From positions 1,116,001 to 1,180,000 of the forward strand of contig CP091033.1 of NCBI GenBank assembly GCA_039725955.1: a stretch of DNA of 64,000 nt. The letters are read 5' to 3'. Position 1 is the stretch's first letter. Each line of letters opens with the position of its first letter. Shown here piece by piece: positions 23,363 to 29,576 of the stretch. This DNA is from Sinorhizobium sp. B11. GTDB taxonomy: Bacteria > Pseudomonadota > Alphaproteobacteria > Rhizobiales > Rhizobiaceae. Position numbers and translations under genes: made by a program. Under the pieces are notes generated by a model that ran no database searches, was not told the DNA's origin, and saw nothing but the letters and a program-made list of their open reading frames with translations.

Positions 23363-25511
23363 CTAGCTCAGCGCCGCGTCGGCGAGTGGCAGCGAGCGAA
23401 TGCGTTTTCCCGACGCCGCGAAGATCGCGTTGGCAAGTGCTCCTGCTACGGCCGCAGTTCCCGCCTCACCGACACCGCCCGGGTTCTCCATGCTCTTGAT
23501 TTGATAGATCTCTATCTTCGGGATTTCGTTGATGCGAAGCGCTCGGTACATGTCGAAATTGGTCTGATCGACTGCCCCGTCGGTGAACGTCACCCGATTG
23601 TACATCGCGCTGCTCAGGCCGAAGATGACGCCACCTTGCATCTGAGCTTCGACCGTATCCGGGTTGATGACGATGCCACAATCAACGGCGATGACCGATC
23701 GAAGAAGCTTCACCTCATCCTTCGTGATCTCGATATCCAATACATGTGCCAGGTAACTTCCGAACGCCGACTGAAGCGAAACACCCCTCCCGCGTCCGGG
23801 CGGAAGCTTATCGCCCCAACCAGCTTTTTCCGCAGCAAGATTCAACACCGCCAGCGCGCGCGGATTTCTGGTTAGCATCCTGCGTCGGAATTCGACGGGA
23901 TCCTGCTTCGTGGCCGTTGCCATTTCATCCACGAAGCTTTCAACAACGAAAAGATTGTGTGTCGGGCCGACTCCGCGCCACCAGCTCGTGTTCACGCCAT
24001 CAGGCTCGGTGCGGACGTAGTCAGCGAAAACGGCATCTTCGTCGTAGGGCGTCTCCGATGCACAGTCGACGGCGTCCGGATCGACGCCGTTTATGAAGGC
24101 TGCAGGCGCGTAACGTGCAAAGATCGATGACCCTGTCACACGGTGCGTTCGGCCGACCAGACGACCGTCCTTATCCAGTCCCGCGGCGACACGATCGTAA
24201 TAGTAGGGACGATAGTAGTCGTGTGTCATGTCCTGTTCGCGGGTCCACACGAGCTTCACTGGATACCGAACGTCTTTGAGAAGTCTGGCTGCGAGTTCGA
24301 TGGAGTCCACTTCGAGACGGCGTCCGAATGCGCCACCGATAAGCTGGTTGTTTACGAAGACCTTGTCTTGCGGCAGCCCGGTCGCGTCGGCGACGGCTTT
24401 CTGCGCCCTGACCGGAACCTGGGTGCCGACCCATATCGCCGCTCTGTCGTCCTGGATGTGGAGAGTGCAATTGAGGGGCTCTAGCGGGGAATGCGAGAGG
24501 AATGGCGACTCATACACCGCCGAAAGTTTCACCGCCGAATTTGAGATCACAGAGGCGGCATCCTTCTCGTTGCGGATGATCACGCCTTGCTGTTGTGAAG
24601 CCTGCTCCAGCTTCGCGACGATCGAATCCAGGCTCACCGCACCATTGGGACCTGCCTCCCACTCGATCTCGAGTGCGTCGATACCTGCCTTGGCGGCCCA
24701 CATATGGTCTCCAATCACAGCGACGGCATATGGCAACTTTACGATATCGTGGACGCCCTTCACGGCGAGCGCTGCCGCTTCGTTCATCTTCGAGATATGC
24801 CCGCCAACCACCGGACTGATTGCCAAGGTCGCGAATTTCATGCCGGGAACGATGATATCTATGCCGTAGATCGCGCTAACCGTTCACCTTATGCGGCGTG
24901 TCCAGACGTTTGGCGCGGGTGCCGATGACTTTGAATTCAGAGGGCTCCTTCAACACCACATTTTCCGGAACGGGGAGTAGCGCTGCTTTTGGCGCGGCTT
25001 CGATGTAACTCATTGAGCGCCGTGACGCTTCATGATGGATTACCCCGGATTCGACACGACATTCTGATACTGGGACCGACCATTCGGAGGCCGCGGCCTG
25101 CACCAACATAGTTCGTGCGGCCGCCCCCGCTTGTCGCAAACGCACCCAGTCAGCCCTCGTCGAGGTAGAGCCACCTGTCGACTGATCGTAGAGCAGTGGA
25201 TCAAGATACTTCGAGAGGTCCGGAGGCGCTGGTTGGAGCTTGACCTGATCCAACCCAACCTCGAGTTCCTCGGCAATCAACATGGTGCTGGACGTGAAGA
25301 TGCCTTGGCCGACCTCATGATGAGCCATGATCAGAGTGATGCCGTCATCGTCGATTTTGATGAATGCGTTCGGAAAGAACGATTTCTGGTTTTCCTGTCC
25401 GGCTGCGGCCGTCCTTCCAAGCCGTGGCAATTGGACCGAGAGCACCAACCCTCCCGTCGCCAAGACAGTGCCTTTCAAGAAATTTCGACGCGAATGCAGA
25501 TTATTGATCAT
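23363..25511 (-). pseudogene. IorB-like molybdopterin-binding subunit, interrupted by a one-base frameshift
   Basis: Read through, this is a 716-codon large subunit of the isoquinoline-1-oxidoreductase/aldehyde-oxidase family. It starts MINNLHSRRNFLKGTVLATGGLVLSVQLP, a Tat signal (SRRNFLK), with GAGAAGAGAACG in front of ATG 25511. The first frame ends PHKVNG then TAG at 24876-24878; the second frame resumes SAIYGIDIIVPGMKFATLA, which is exactly the expected continuation. One extra base in the GGTT/TAG stretch (around 24877-24880) accounts for the shift. The C-terminal 492 codons retain LNCTLHIQDD, GGAFGRR, WWRGVGPTHN and the GVGEAG motif. Function is lost unless the shift is a sequencing error or is bypassed. 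Molybdenum-centre enzyme, periplasmic. Confidence 0.88.
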
Positions 25512-26082
25512 CGTTCTCTTCTCCGATCCGATGCCAGCCATCTGACCCAGAATTTCAGATTTCGGACGACGACATCGTTGAACTTCAATTCGAGAACTTG
25601 CGTCGGTGTTGGATTTGTTTCTTGAACGATCCGGCAGCGGCACGAACGCGCGAGTATTCTCGGGACTCTTCTGCCTCTGCGGAGGGAGCTTCGTACAAGA
25701 CCGCATCGCCCGAAGAGGCAGTCGATCGTCAAACAGCGACGGGGAATCCCATTAGCCCCTTTCCGTGCTTTTTAGCGGAGCGGGCGAATAAGTTGCCAAC
25801 TGAGGACGCAAGGTTCCAGTGCCATTTACGGGGGCGAGATGAGCAAGGATATCGGATACCGCATACGCGTGCGCTCTAACATAATGGCCCTGGAAAAGGC
25901 CCTGGGTATTTAGTCGATTTTTCTCTCCACACTGTGATCACAGCATTGAAAAGTTGCCGCATCCTCCACCAGAAGCTCGCGCCCGGGCACGCAATAGTGC
26001 TATCTCTGCGTGCGAAAGATACTCTGATTCTCGCAATCAAACTCGCTCATTAGACACAGCAAATTTTGGAGGGTTCTTAACA
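25512..26082. other. 571-bp intergenic region with short repeats
   Basis: No gene longer than a few dozen codons is convincing. Visible structure: GGCCCTGG twice (25886-25893 and 25898-25905) separated by AAAA, and a perfect palindrome CTGTGATCACAG at 25932-25943. A 24-codon frame beginning MSKDIGYRIRVRSN (GGGGGCGAG upstream, stop in the second GGCCCTGG-GTATTTAG) could be a remnant or a leader peptide. It is the upstream region of the unknown two-gene unit at 26083. Confidence 0.45.
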
Positions 26083-26913
26083 ATGGCACGAAAGCCAATG
26101 GCGATGAACGGGCCGAGCCACCCGAAGACGGATCTGCGTGAGCGAGTGTCCACCAGCCCGATGGGCGACGCCCTACCCCTGGTCCACGTCACCGAAATGG
26201 GCATCGGCGAAGCAATAATAGTCTCTGGCCAGCTTCAAGCTAGGTGGTGCAAGGTCTTTGGACGCGATCTTCTCTATTTTTTCCTCGGTCGCCCAGCGTA
26301 TCGCATACACGACGAGGGAGAGACATCACGTTACGTTTCCCGATATCCGTGCGTTTTCGTTGTGGATCCGACCCGCGTCAAGCCCACGCAGGTTTATCCC
26401 TTTGATACGGGTGCCGCCAAAGCGGGCTTCTACGCCAGCGCAGATCCGCATCTCGGCATACGGGACTACATGCTTGAAGGCACCTATGAGAGCGCTCGCA
26501 AACAGCTGGGATTTGCTTTCGAAACAGTGGATGATTACTTCGAGGGACGGCTTAAACCCGGGTTGTCGGACGACGTGCCCGCCTTCGATCAGGCGACGCA
26601 CAGCTATGTCGCGATAGCAAACCAAGCAAATCGGGGCGTCAACAATCCCGGGACATACGATGATCGGGCATCGGCGATCGAAATTGCGACGGAAGGCCAC
26701 CTCGACCTCAAGGGAGCTGTTCAACTCGTTATATTGCCGCAGCAATTTCTGGAGGGGAAAGACGGTAGCAAGAATACCAAACTCATCGATCGATTAAAAG
26801 CGCAGGACCTGACGGTATTGCCATACGATTGGCAGAGCACTCGAACCCCCGCTGATTTTCGACCCGAGATCAATGCGTTGGTTCTGGCCCATTTCAAGAA
26901 GAGCAAACCATGA
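26083..26913 (+). CDS. Unknown protein, first gene of a coupled two-gene unit
   Basis: 276 aa from ATG 26083 with a GGAGGG site 8 nt upstream (in-frame codons further upstream have no such site). No signal peptide or membrane span. Residues 31-95 contain LPLVHVTEMGIGEAIIVSGQLQ, then CKVFGRDLLYFFLGRPAYR and RYPCVFVVDP. This layout (an early H-x-T, a basic Tyr-rich LLYFFxGRPAYR, then a hydrophobic strand) recalls small ADP-ribosyltransferase-like folds, but that is only a resemblance. The stop codon overlaps the next start by 4 bp (ATGA at 26910-26913), so the two products are made in step and probably interact. Confidence 0.75.
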   Translation: MARKPMAMNGPSHPKTDLRERVSTSPMGDALPLVHVTEMGIGEAIIVSGQLQARWCKVFGRDLLYFFLGRPAYRIHDEGETSRYVSRYPCVFVVDPTRVKPTQVYPFDTGAAKAGFYASADPHLGIRDYMLEGTYESARKQLGFAFETVDDYFEGRLKPGLSDDVPAFDQATHSYVAIANQANRGVNNPGTYDDRASAIEIATEGHLDLKGAVQLVILPQQFLEGKDGSKNTKLIDRLKAQDLTVLPYDWQSTRTPADFRPEINALVLAHFKKSKP

Positions 26914-29576
26914 CCTCAAGCTACCGATCGATGAAACTGATTGGCTACGAGCCCCTAACCGGAGAAAATACTGGCTTTTGTACCGGTCTGTATACTGCGG
27001 TTGGCAAATCAAATGAAGTATTCGTACCAATTTCCCTAGTCGAAGGCGGGGGAACGTCAACGGTTGCGGATTTCGTGTCTGTCACGCCTAGAGACGCCTT
27101 CTGGTTCAATAACGATGATGAAGACTGGCCATTGCTGTCGATCGGCGATCCTTGGAAGGATGTCTTGTTGCTCGAGGGCCAGATTCTGTATGGCACGCGG
27201 CAACACTTACTAGCAGAAGCTGCATGGGCGTTTGATGCGTTGTTGCGCGACTATCCTTTCACGGCAGTTGACCTCGTGAGGGACTTCGGCGGAAAAGATC
27301 GGCCGCGGGCTGTCAAAGCTGCGTATGACCGTATCTCCAAAAACTTCACTCACAGCGAAGCTGAGTCCTGGGCGCTGGGAACCTACTTTCGAGGCCAAAT
27401 CCAAACCCATCTCAGGCGTAAATTAGTACAGCGCAATGCGTCGGTGATGGCCCTAGAGGCCCTCCGCTATATTCGGGTCGCAAAATCCGAGAGCGACACG
27501 ATTGTCGAAGTCTCGCTTCCAGGATCGCAAGAGTTCAATCCAGAGGACATTGCTCCTATACTCCGTTTGGGCGATGATCGTGAAGCGATCAACCTACTAG
27601 CCGAACTTTCACAAATTCTGGGCCGCCTTGCACTAAGAGGCCGTATCGAGGACGGAACCCTGGTCGCTCAATATCGGCCCAAGCCAATCGCCGTGATCGC
27701 CATTGGCAGGCTAAGTGAACAGGTTGGCCGAACGTTGATGGAAGACGCCGGTCGGCCACATTTTATACTGGACACCAATTGGCCGAGTAGGCTTTTTGTA
27801 AGAACCACGATAGCCGACCTCGAAGCCTCCGAGCCAGATTCTTTCAGCCTCGCGGTAGTAATACTAGACGACGACTTGACCGGTAGGGATCAGTTCGAAT
27901 TTGAGCAGGTAAGCGCCCTGATCGATCGTCTTGGCCTACCAATGCTCATTACCCCCACGCTGCCGAAGCACGCCCCTTCTGCGCTTCTGAGCCTCAGCAA
28001 TGAACGTGGGATATTCGGGAAACGAATTAGAGCCCTTTGTCTCGATACTTCAGCCGTGCGCTCACCATTCTATCTAGCCGATCGATCGACATCACTCACA
28101 AGACGCACTGCTCTTCAACTCGTGCAGGCTTGTCTTCTATTGCTGTCCGGTCCCAACTCACTTCAACGTTTTTATCGTGAATTAGACAGAAAGGGACGAT
28201 CTTGTCTAACCGTCACTTATTTGGGGAATGGAGCTGATCGACATACGGTTCCATCCGAAGCGGTGGAGGCATCCGACGAGCCAAAGCTAACAGTACGCGG
28301 ATCGATCAGATCGGCCGTGAGCCCTTCCACAAAACGTCAACCCACGCCGACGGGGATCTACGAAATCTGGGCAAGCCATCTCCGCGAGGAGGGTATCGAT
28401 GACCTAGCAATGGGAGTAGTCTCGCGCGCGCTCAGCGAGCTGAAAATGAAGGAAGTCCAGTGGTTTATTGGTGATAGCGATTTCCCAGCTGCCCTAGAGT
28501 CCATGGAATTCCCTCATCTGAAAACGCTTGTAGACCTAGAAATTGGACTTCGGCTTCTCGTCACCGCTGAATCACCTTCCCTGAAAACACTACTGCGTAT
28601 GGCCGAGGCCGGAGTTCAAGCCGTGCGATACTCCGATATCGGCACCATAAAGAGATGTATACTCGCTGCAGTACGCGGTCGTCCCGAAGTGGCGATTCCG
28701 AGCGACATGTTGCCGCTAGGTGTCCCACAACGCTTTAGCTGGCAGCAAAGTACCGTTTTTCTGAGAGCGGTCCAATCTCCTGGTCTCGTGATTGATCGTA
28801 GCGCTTGGAATGACTGGGCCGAAAAATTTCCTGATCATCCGCTGGCCGCGAGAGCAAAAACCATAATGCCGACTGGGGTAAAAGGAGACCGGGAAATCCG
28901 ACCGGCAGTAGCACTGTCAACCATTGACGTTCACACTGCGCTGCTTGAAGGCGGTGAGGCCTTTGAGCTCCTTCGAGAACGCAGAGAAACACGCCCTGAA
29001 CATATGGGCATCAACCGGCTGATGTTCATGGACGATCCCGTCACGTCGGGAGTGTTTCGCTGGGTCTTTCGAGCCGGCAGATTTCCGATCGGCCTGCGCA
29101 GGCTACCGAAAGAAATTACCGTGGGAGAAGGATGGATCGTGTTCGACGGCGACCAATATGCTGCTGCGATGGTCGCTTCGCGAATGTTCGAGACATGGAC
29201 GAAGGCACACACCAGCGATTTTAGCCCCTCAAACACCAGGAAGACTGATTGGGCAATGAATGCCTTTCCGTGGCCAGCGGGATTCAAGCAAATCGATGGC
29301 AACGCCATGATCTGTACCGATCCGACGCCGCGCTTCCAAGAAGTCTGCTCGTCACTTCGGTTCATAGACCTTACCCTAGACTACCGCGACCTTTCACCGG
29401 GAGAGCGTATGAACGAAGCCGAAGCTCAGTATGGAAGCGAACTGAACCTTGCGGCTCTTAGTATGTATGATTTCCCCGCCCAAAGTTCAGATCTGCATTT
29501 GCTCGGTCGCTTGGTTGCCTTAAATCACGAGAATGAGATGCCGACTAGAATGCCAAGGTTAAGAGAGTTTCCGTGA
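26910..29576 (+). CDS. Unknown 888-residue protein, second gene of the coupled unit
   Basis: No family recognised and no membrane segment. N-terminal ~100 residues are strand-rich (GYEPLTGENTGFCTGLYTAVG). Residues ~120-190 are helical and basic (FRGQIQTHLRRKLVQRNASVMALEALRYI). Residues ~260-410 look like a Rossmann-type alternation (KPIAVIAIGRL, SLAVVILDDDLTGRDQFEFEQ, LGLPMLITPTLPKHAP). A linker near 440-490 precedes a helical middle, and the C-terminal 250 residues are mixed alpha/beta (GEGWIVFDGDQYAAAMVASRMFETW, WAMNAFPWPAGF). GC is lower than in the flanking backbone. Translation is coupled to the preceding gene by ATGA overlap. No third gene follows on the plus strand. Confidence 0.75.
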   Translation: MTSSYRSMKLIGYEPLTGENTGFCTGLYTAVGKSNEVFVPISLVEGGGTSTVADFVSVTPRDAFWFNNDDEDWPLLSIGDPWKDVLLLEGQILYGTRQHLLAEAAWAFDALLRDYPFTAVDLVRDFGGKDRPRAVKAAYDRISKNFTHSEAESWALGTYFRGQIQTHLRRKLVQRNASVMALEALRYIRVAKSESDTIVEVSLPGSQEFNPEDIAPILRLGDDREAINLLAELSQILGRLALRGRIEDGTLVAQYRPKPIAVIAIGRLSEQVGRTLMEDAGRPHFILDTNWPSRLFVRTTIADLEASEPDSFSLAVVILDDDLTGRDQFEFEQVSALIDRLGLPMLITPTLPKHAPSALLSLSNERGIFGKRIRALCLDTSAVRSPFYLADRSTSLTRRTALQLVQACLLLLSGPNSLQRFYRELDRKGRSCLTVTYLGNGADRHTVPSEAVEASDEPKLTVRGSIRSAVSPSTKRQPTPTGIYEIWASHLREEGIDDLAMGVVSRALSELKMKEVQWFIGDSDFPAALESMEFPHLKTLVDLEIGLRLLVTAESPSLKTLLRMAEAGVQAVRYSDIGTIKRCILAAVRGRPEVAIPSDMLPLGVPQRFSWQQSTVFLRAVQSPGLVIDRSAWNDWAEKFPDHPLAARAKTIMPTGVKGDREIRPAVALSTIDVHTALLEGGEAFELLRERRETRPEHMGINRLMFMDDPVTSGVFRWVFRAGRFPIGLRRLPKEITVGEGWIVFDGDQYAAAMVASRMFETWTKAHTSDFSPSNTRKTDWAMNAFPWPAGFKQIDGNAMICTDPTPRFQEVCSSLRFIDLTLDYRDLSPGERMNEAEAQYGSELNLAALSMYDFPAQSSDLHLLGRLVALNHENEMPTRMPRLREFP

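Follow-up and report, generated by a model that had tools for sequence, protein, structure and literature searches.

A two-gene unit of Sinorhizobium sp. B11 that pairs a putative ADP-ribosyltransferase with a partner of exchangeable C-termini: a candidate modular conflict system

We analysed a stretch of 64,000 nucleotides from Sinorhizobium sp. B11 (contig CP091033.1, positions 1,116,001 to 1,180,000 of the forward strand; hereafter the window, numbered from its first letter) and in particular a unit of two overlapping genes at positions 26,083 to 29,576. An initial annotation, made from the letters alone, had proposed that this pair of undescribed proteins, a small enzyme resembling ADP-ribosyltransferases (ARTs) and a large partner, may be a defence or conflict system. 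Comparison with relatives supports the reading as a conflict system, from which we infer the defence function itself. The small gene is almost always followed by a partner gene whose N-terminal domain (N-domain) is constant and whose C-terminus is exchanged, several of the C-termini being extra copies of host proteins. We hold with about even confidence that the unit is a two-component conflict system, most likely directed against phages, in which an ART effector would be associated with an adaptor carrying an exchangeable bait.

Relatives of the small protein were collected by tblastn, which gave 11 plasmid records of which seven were used, and by searching genome contigs with a profile made from the plasmid-borne relatives. 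Of the 82 loci found in this second way 80 were kept, and these, with the seven plasmid loci and five on viral contigs, make up 92 ART loci (numbered L). Most of them belong to Alphaproteobacteria, and others lie on contigs labelled Bacillota, Bacteroidota, Verrucomicrobiota, Planctomycetota and Chloroflexota. Because the same two-gene unit is found on contigs that bear the labels of several phyla, the pairing is more than a chance association. A six-frame search with a hidden Markov model found the N-domain immediately 3' of the ART in 85 of the 92 loci, and 82 of the 84 partner open reading frames (ORFs) overlap the ART stop codon or begin at most 20 bases from it. Six of the seven remaining loci are at a contig edge (L057, L070, L093) or have a frameshifted or truncated ART (L050, L045, L090); the seventh is L054. 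A separate sample of genomes of the class, 385 in number, contained eight matches to the ART profile (seven strong, one partial with E 4.7e-4). Matches to the N-domain profile numbered seven and coincided in place with the seven strong ART matches. This near-obligate pairing rules out two independent genes. A core or housekeeping role is ruled out as well: strong ART matches occur in only seven of these 385 genomes, the large protein is matched in 4 of 200 genomes of relatives (its own included), and the fold of the small protein is that of an ART nearest to DarT and Tpt1. Hence, the initial picture of two co-occurring accessory genes, with no structural match to a housekeeping protein, holds.

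The partners, which range from 238 to 1134 aa, have only their N-domain in common. The first 130 residues of all 84 partners fall into one phmmer cluster (single linkage, E < 1e-3), while shuffled N-termini gave no link in three trials, and the N-domain profile recovers every partner at E <= 3.4e-15, having been built from these same partners. The rest of the protein was clustered for partners longer than 240 aa, leaving out the cold-shock partner L068. These 83 C-termini fall into 31 clusters, a number that is, if anything, low because RelA and TPR partners still group with the window type. Those that Pfam names are ribosomal protein S9 (L032, L033, L041, L073), RelA/SpoT (L018), AMP ligase (L029), SNF2 helicase (L031), FGE-sulfatase (L095), RES (L058), a cold-shock domain (L068) and TPR (L013). 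The loci of named ends were found by motif or by eye, the TPR end of L019 by eye. The units of L018 (RelA), L019 (TPR) and L029 (AMP ligase), whose ARTs are 35-44% identical to that of the window, nest inside the window's ART clade of 18 rows, so C-termini have been swapped under related ARTs; L027 and L030, which belong to the same clade, have C-termini that are different again.

An origin of the C-termini as copies of nearby genes was examined by tblastn within the locus of each partner having more than 60 C-terminal residues, and only L067 (4400-8406) was positive: its C-terminus and the gene immediately downstream, which is devoid of the N-domain, share 29% identity over 310 aa. In addition, two window-type partners (L016, 1227-4499, and L020, 8786-12058) extend about 180 residues further at the C-terminus than others of this type, and one of the 84 partners has a weak match to an OLD-type TOPRIM model.

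Several ends are extra copies of host proteins. The four S9 ends are complete. In three of the four metagenome-assembled genomes (MAGs), the fused S9 is accompanied by a separate S9 with which it shares 74, 81 and 64% identity, which rules out the fusion as the only S9 of these hosts; the fourth MAG (G201) yielded the fusion only. One of these units (L073, 1088-15796, in a MAG labelled Bacteroides) lies amid ORFs that by eye are relaxase-, coupling protein- and VirB4-like, as in a conjugative element, and another (L032) adjoins a transposase-like ORF. The Rel end is identical at 458 of 714 positions (64%) to the separate Rel of its own genome. Its HD motif LLHDTIEDT has become LIHGGSAET, a second HD-site motif reads KLAARLHEM in place of KLADRLHNM, and three synthetase motifs are altered. 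We take these motifs to be the sites of the catalytic residues, and the Rel end is thus predicted from its sequence to be dead at both active sites. The AMP-ligase end shares 412 of 570 residues (72%) with the separate gene of its genome, and the cold-shock end 43 of 62 with the nearest other copy. Finally, the unit of L061 lies between the two halves of darG, in a split darTG operon. Along this locus come darT (34-38% identity with two DarTs), an ORF reduced to the DarG macrodomain (64-65%), about 360 bases, the ART and a partner that ends with the DarG C-terminal domain (47-50% identity with two DarGs).

The partner encoded in the window also resembles known machinery, as judged from a structure model built on a 13-sequence alignment (pLDDT 76.9). 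The model begins with the beta-rich N-domain and a helical stretch, which are followed by a tubulin/FtsZ-type fold and an MmeI-type region. The middle part, initially described as Rossmann-like, is more exactly a tubulin/FtsZ-type fold, which aligns with CetZ (3zid; Z 12.2, 203 residues aligned, root-mean-square deviation 3.7) and with FtsZ (5h5g; Z 10.9). It differs from the FtsZ/tubulin GTPases in the absence of the nucleotide loop: GGGTG[ST]G was found in none of the 29 FtsZ-class partners (24 classed by structure or clustering and five by eye). For the L035-type end, the link with FtsZ is also apparent by sequence, as all 23 PDB sequences found at E <= 1 are FtsZ (best 7.1e-5). The terminal region superimposes on residues 616-905 of the Type IIL restriction-modification enzyme MmeI (5hr4; Z 11.9, 228 residues aligned; Foldseek E 2.5e-7). 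The target-recognition and C-terminal region of this enzyme is present, whereas the methyltransferase motif [DN]PP[YFW] is absent from all 14 window-type partners. Between these two parts, a stretch of alpha and beta elements is possibly, as judged by eye from the secondary structure, a dead restriction endonuclease-like core.

Two large clusters, with 24 partners in all, retain the FtsZ-type ends, and no full-length free-standing version of these ends was seen in 372 genomes. In these genomes, the window-type C-terminus matched its own unit and, partially, ten ORFs of 746-2009 aa over 91-147 model positions, and the one of these ORFs that was examined (L136) has the motifs of a DNA methyltransferase; the L035-type C-terminus matched one known unit (G426) and gave one weak partial match.

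The defence setting suspected from the outset was recovered among the neighbours of the units. The 131 (of 149) nearest neighbours matched 177 PADLOC models, several of which can match one protein, versus three models for 131 of the 134 control ORFs that the window's genome contains in seven stretches of 20 kb, a contrast that is only indicative because the control is a single genome. AbiU and MzaE account for six proteins each. Moreover, a MutL-Z1-PDDEXK-AIPR operon, which we take to be Mza-like, stands beside 10 of 13 window-type relatives and beside none of the 79 loci of other types; PADLOC Mza models also match neighbours of the units. The four-gene operon is directly upstream on the same strand in L017, L020, L021, L023, L028 and, by annotation, L007. 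With L016, in which the AIPR end is at the locus edge, this same-strand upstream group amounts to seven loci. In the three others (L024-L026), AIPR, PDDEXK and Z1 are downstream and convergent up to the locus end.

The small protein carries the two patterns on which its likeness to ARTs had been based, H-x-T at residues 35-37 and LLYFFLGRPAYR at residues 63-74, and structure comparison bears out this likeness, with DarT and Tpt1 as the nearest folds. Its AlphaFold model (pLDDT 94.5, pTM 0.92) has DarT chains as top Foldseek matches (E 1.9e-4 to 9.3e-4, probability 0.98-1.00). With VIA, the best rows are Tpt1, the tRNA 2'-phosphotransferase (Z 8.9 over 105 residues), and DarT (Z 7.6-8.7 over 156-173 residues), followed by other ARTs; we take the first 39 rows to be ART-fold chains, except three CC0527 rows left unclassified. 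The window's ART was aligned with 73 others from the genome and viral loci (85 in total), giving 74 members; L035, L046 and L059 (doubtful start), nine broken, cut or duplicate loci and the plasmid loci were omitted. Nine residues are invariant in all 74: H35, Y65, P106, F107, D108, G110, D193, R195 and E200. According to the model and this alignment, H35 (codon at 26185) is on strand 33-38, Y65 (26275) on strand 61-68 and E200 (26680) on strand 200-203. From what is known of the family, these three presumably form the catalytic triad of H-Y-E type ARTs. By sequence, the small protein is not a DarT, since the Pfam DarT family (PF14487) is absent from the 16 families listed for the 74 members at E <= 1. 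From the model, its putative activity would be NAD+-dependent ADP-ribosylation.

These data suggest how the unit may work. The first gene would provide a DarT/Tpt1-like ART acting as effector, and the N-domain of the partner would pair with it and restrain it. The C-terminus would serve as a bait or guard module, exchangeable between units, which resembles a host machine or a defence system encoded nearby or plugs into it, for instance ribosomal S9, RelA/SpoT, FtsZ, a restriction target-recognition domain or DarG. An invader protein, presumably from a phage, that binds, modifies or displaces the bait would free the ART, and this enzyme may then modify nucleic acid or protein with the help of NAD+, so that growth or phage production is halted. 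In the window unit, the bait would be the pseudo-FtsZ together with the MmeI-type DNA-recognition end. Ends that sense rather than catalyse are suggested by the altered Rel sites, the absent FtsZ loop, the close host copies, the position within darG and the link with a restriction-like operon. A constant effector and an adaptor with swapped, often host-derived ends are the appearance that would be expected, by analogy, of a guard or integrated-decoy system. We put forward more tentatively, as somewhat less than an even prospect, that this is a general bacterial integrated-decoy platform, with one ART, one adaptor domain and plugged-in copies of the targets of invaders.

Several observations weigh against this proposal. 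Most C-terminal clusters match nothing named, and because of this the word bait is an extrapolation for most of them. Catalytic death as a rule for enzyme-like ends was considered and rejected: it is seen in the Rel end and in the FtsZ loop but is contradicted by the AMP-ligase end, which shows no visible active-site loss relative to its paralogue, so that a dead bait is not general. The AIPR-type operon is absent in the window, where only a 74-residue MutL match was found (60.6 kb, E 1.2e-4), and in three of the 13 window-type relatives (L014, L015, L022). As for the ART fold, the best VIA Z of 8-9 barely exceeds the 7-8 typical of models without a clear match, and the call leans for this reason on the agreement among the best VIA rows and Foldseek. 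The hhalign comparison with two DarTs is weak (25 columns, E 0.0072, probability 5.4) and covers the H-x-T region only, and neither the ART profile nor the N-domain profile found a PDB chain by sequence. Lastly, L054 (7968-8801) is an intact ART without an adjoining N-domain, the only such case among the 92 loci.

The C-termini might instead sense nothing and carry the ART to its site of action for modification there, S9 or Rel ends leading it to the ribosome and cold-shock, SNF2 or target-recognition domains to nucleic acid. Ribosomal S9, Rel, cold-shock, SNF2 and target-recognition domains all bind ribosomes or nucleic acid, and the fused S9, which keeps its SKR tail, is more conserved than the ART or the N-domain in all six pairs of S9 loci. 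However, such a role does not suit the AMP-ligase, FGE-sulfatase, RES and TPR ends or the DarG C-terminus, a pseudo-FtsZ without GTP loop would be an odd address label, and the ART would lack any restraint. We consider such targeting unlikely.

A toxin-antitoxin system with substrate-mimic antitoxins appears less probable still. Here the ART would attack a given host protein and the partner would neutralise it through a copy of that protein. Repeated retargeting would be needed for the ARTs of the window clade to bear Rel, TPR and AMP-ligase ends at 35-44% identity, the DarG C-terminus is implausible as a substrate, and DarT modifies DNA, as also stated in PMC11833690. The closeness of the copies to the host's own proteins agrees with substrate mimicry, as does the distribution of the C-terminal clusters, which track the ART tree beyond chance (30 changes versus a shuffled mean of 55.8).

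Least probable of the three is an ordinary toxin-antitoxin system in which the N-domain, the sole constant part, would by itself be the antitoxin, with the C-termini as neutral fusions gained by insertion, as the unit lodged in darG and the S9 fusions close to transposase- or conjugation-type ORFs might suggest, since neutral fusions should decay, whereas the FtsZ-type ends are kept, the Rel end remains 64% identical over 714 residues with both active sites changed, and S9 is the best conserved part of its units. None of these three explanations accounts for all ends.

The proposed guard system is, by analogy, closest to DarTG as regards the effector, and to PARIS, Ronin and PrrC as regards the presumed logic. 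It shares with DarTG the ART fold, the layout of an enzyme gene followed by a partner gene and, in L061, the DarG C-terminal domain. It differs from it by the absence of PF14487 matches in all 74 members, and DarG has no counterpart to the constant N-domain with swapped C-termini. Neither macrodomain nor NADAR is among the best 25 of the 27 Pfam families matched by the 84 partners, and the window partner, being without Pfam match, has no macrodomain. CmdTAC reportedly comprises three genes, unlike the two genes here. Like the present unit, it associates an ART effector with partner proteins, in an anti-phage role (PMC11618068). In PARIS, Ronin and PrrC-type guards, a sensor that is acted on by a phage anti-defence protein restrains a toxin; the likeness is one of logic only, as their effectors are nucleases or a short toxin and not an ART (PMC12409349). 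Nor do they have a set of interchangeable copies of host proteins as sensors. The Mza-like operon is a gene neighbour of window-type relatives and not of the window unit. In plants, integrated-decoy NLR (nucleotide-binding leucine-rich repeat) receptors combine a constant signalling part with swapped host-derived bait domains. This is an analogy and not a kinship, the kingdom, folds and effector being all different, and no bacterial integrated-decoy counterpart was found among the literature matches listed. The new part is the exchangeable host-derived ends, since the ART fold and the guard logic already have counterparts. The pair itself was not found described among the matches listed in the literature searched, which included passages of PMC9503650, PMC11833690 and PMC12409349, with subscription journals and preprints outside its scope.

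If the integrated-decoy platform were confirmed, bacteria would possess a modular immunity in which one toxin-like enzyme is wired to exchangeable baits drawn from the cell's own proteins. The list of C-termini could then be viewed as a read-out of host proteins targeted by phages and would indicate attacked host factors, some of which are not yet recognised as targets. It would also explain the extra S9, Rel and FtsZ-like copies in accessory DNA. In addition, a large ART family without Pfam model gains a setting and a testable role.

Table 1. Features of the two-gene unit (positions in the window; residues are those of the large protein)
Feature	Positions	Strand	Basis
GGAGGG ribosome-binding site of the small gene	26068..26073	+	read from sequence
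Small gene (ATG to stop), putative ART-fold (DarT/Tpt1-like) effector, 276 aa	26083..26913	+	ORF, alignment, structure model
ATGA start/stop overlap (translational coupling)	26910..26913	+	read from sequence
Large gene (ATG to stop), modular partner, 888 aa: constant N-domain and exchangeable C-terminus	26910..29576	+	
Partner N-terminal domain, residues 1-120, beta-rich, sole part common to all partners found	26910..27269	+	
Pseudo-FtsZ/tubulin domain, residues 257-533, without GGGTG[ST]G loop	27678..28508	+	structure comparison
Alpha-beta-beta-beta-alpha-beta stretch, residues 497-588, overlapping both flanking ranges	28398..28673	+	secondary structure
MmeI-type target-recognition and C-terminal region, residues 556-878, without methyltransferase motif	28575..29543	+	

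Within the window, the pair is coupled by the ATGA overlap and stands alone among unrelated genes, as had been read from the sequence: upstream are pieces of a molybdopterin-dependent dehydrogenase and downstream a DUF3616 gene, both on the opposite strand. The small gene is single-copy in the genome and lies on a 2.16-Mb contig of a three-contig assembly. Neither protein of the window has a match in Pfam, PADLOC 2.0.0, NCBIfam or PHROGs, even at E 10. The lower GC content that had been attributed to the unit holds as a value (0.53-0.55 in 1-kb bins at 26-30 kb, for a window range of 0.50-0.63) but is not special to it, other bins being equal or below (for instance 0.504 at 39-40 kb).

A clean empty site for the unit was not found among the sequences compared, as two same-genus genomes diverge from the window ahead of it. 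Their DNA similarity of 81% ends at position 25638, 445 bases before the unit, and beyond this point one of them (L118) has other genes, the first being catalase-like. The dehydrogenase at 23363-25706 consists of two ORFs in the window and of a single 716-aa ORF in L118, and its split is, to judge from these ORFs, probably a frameshift. On the other side of the unit, an ORF at 31821-33407 matches a Nal1 C-terminal domain (E 8e-7) and is adjoined by an ORF with a weak S1/P1-nuclease match and by a polysaccharide-lyase-like ORF.

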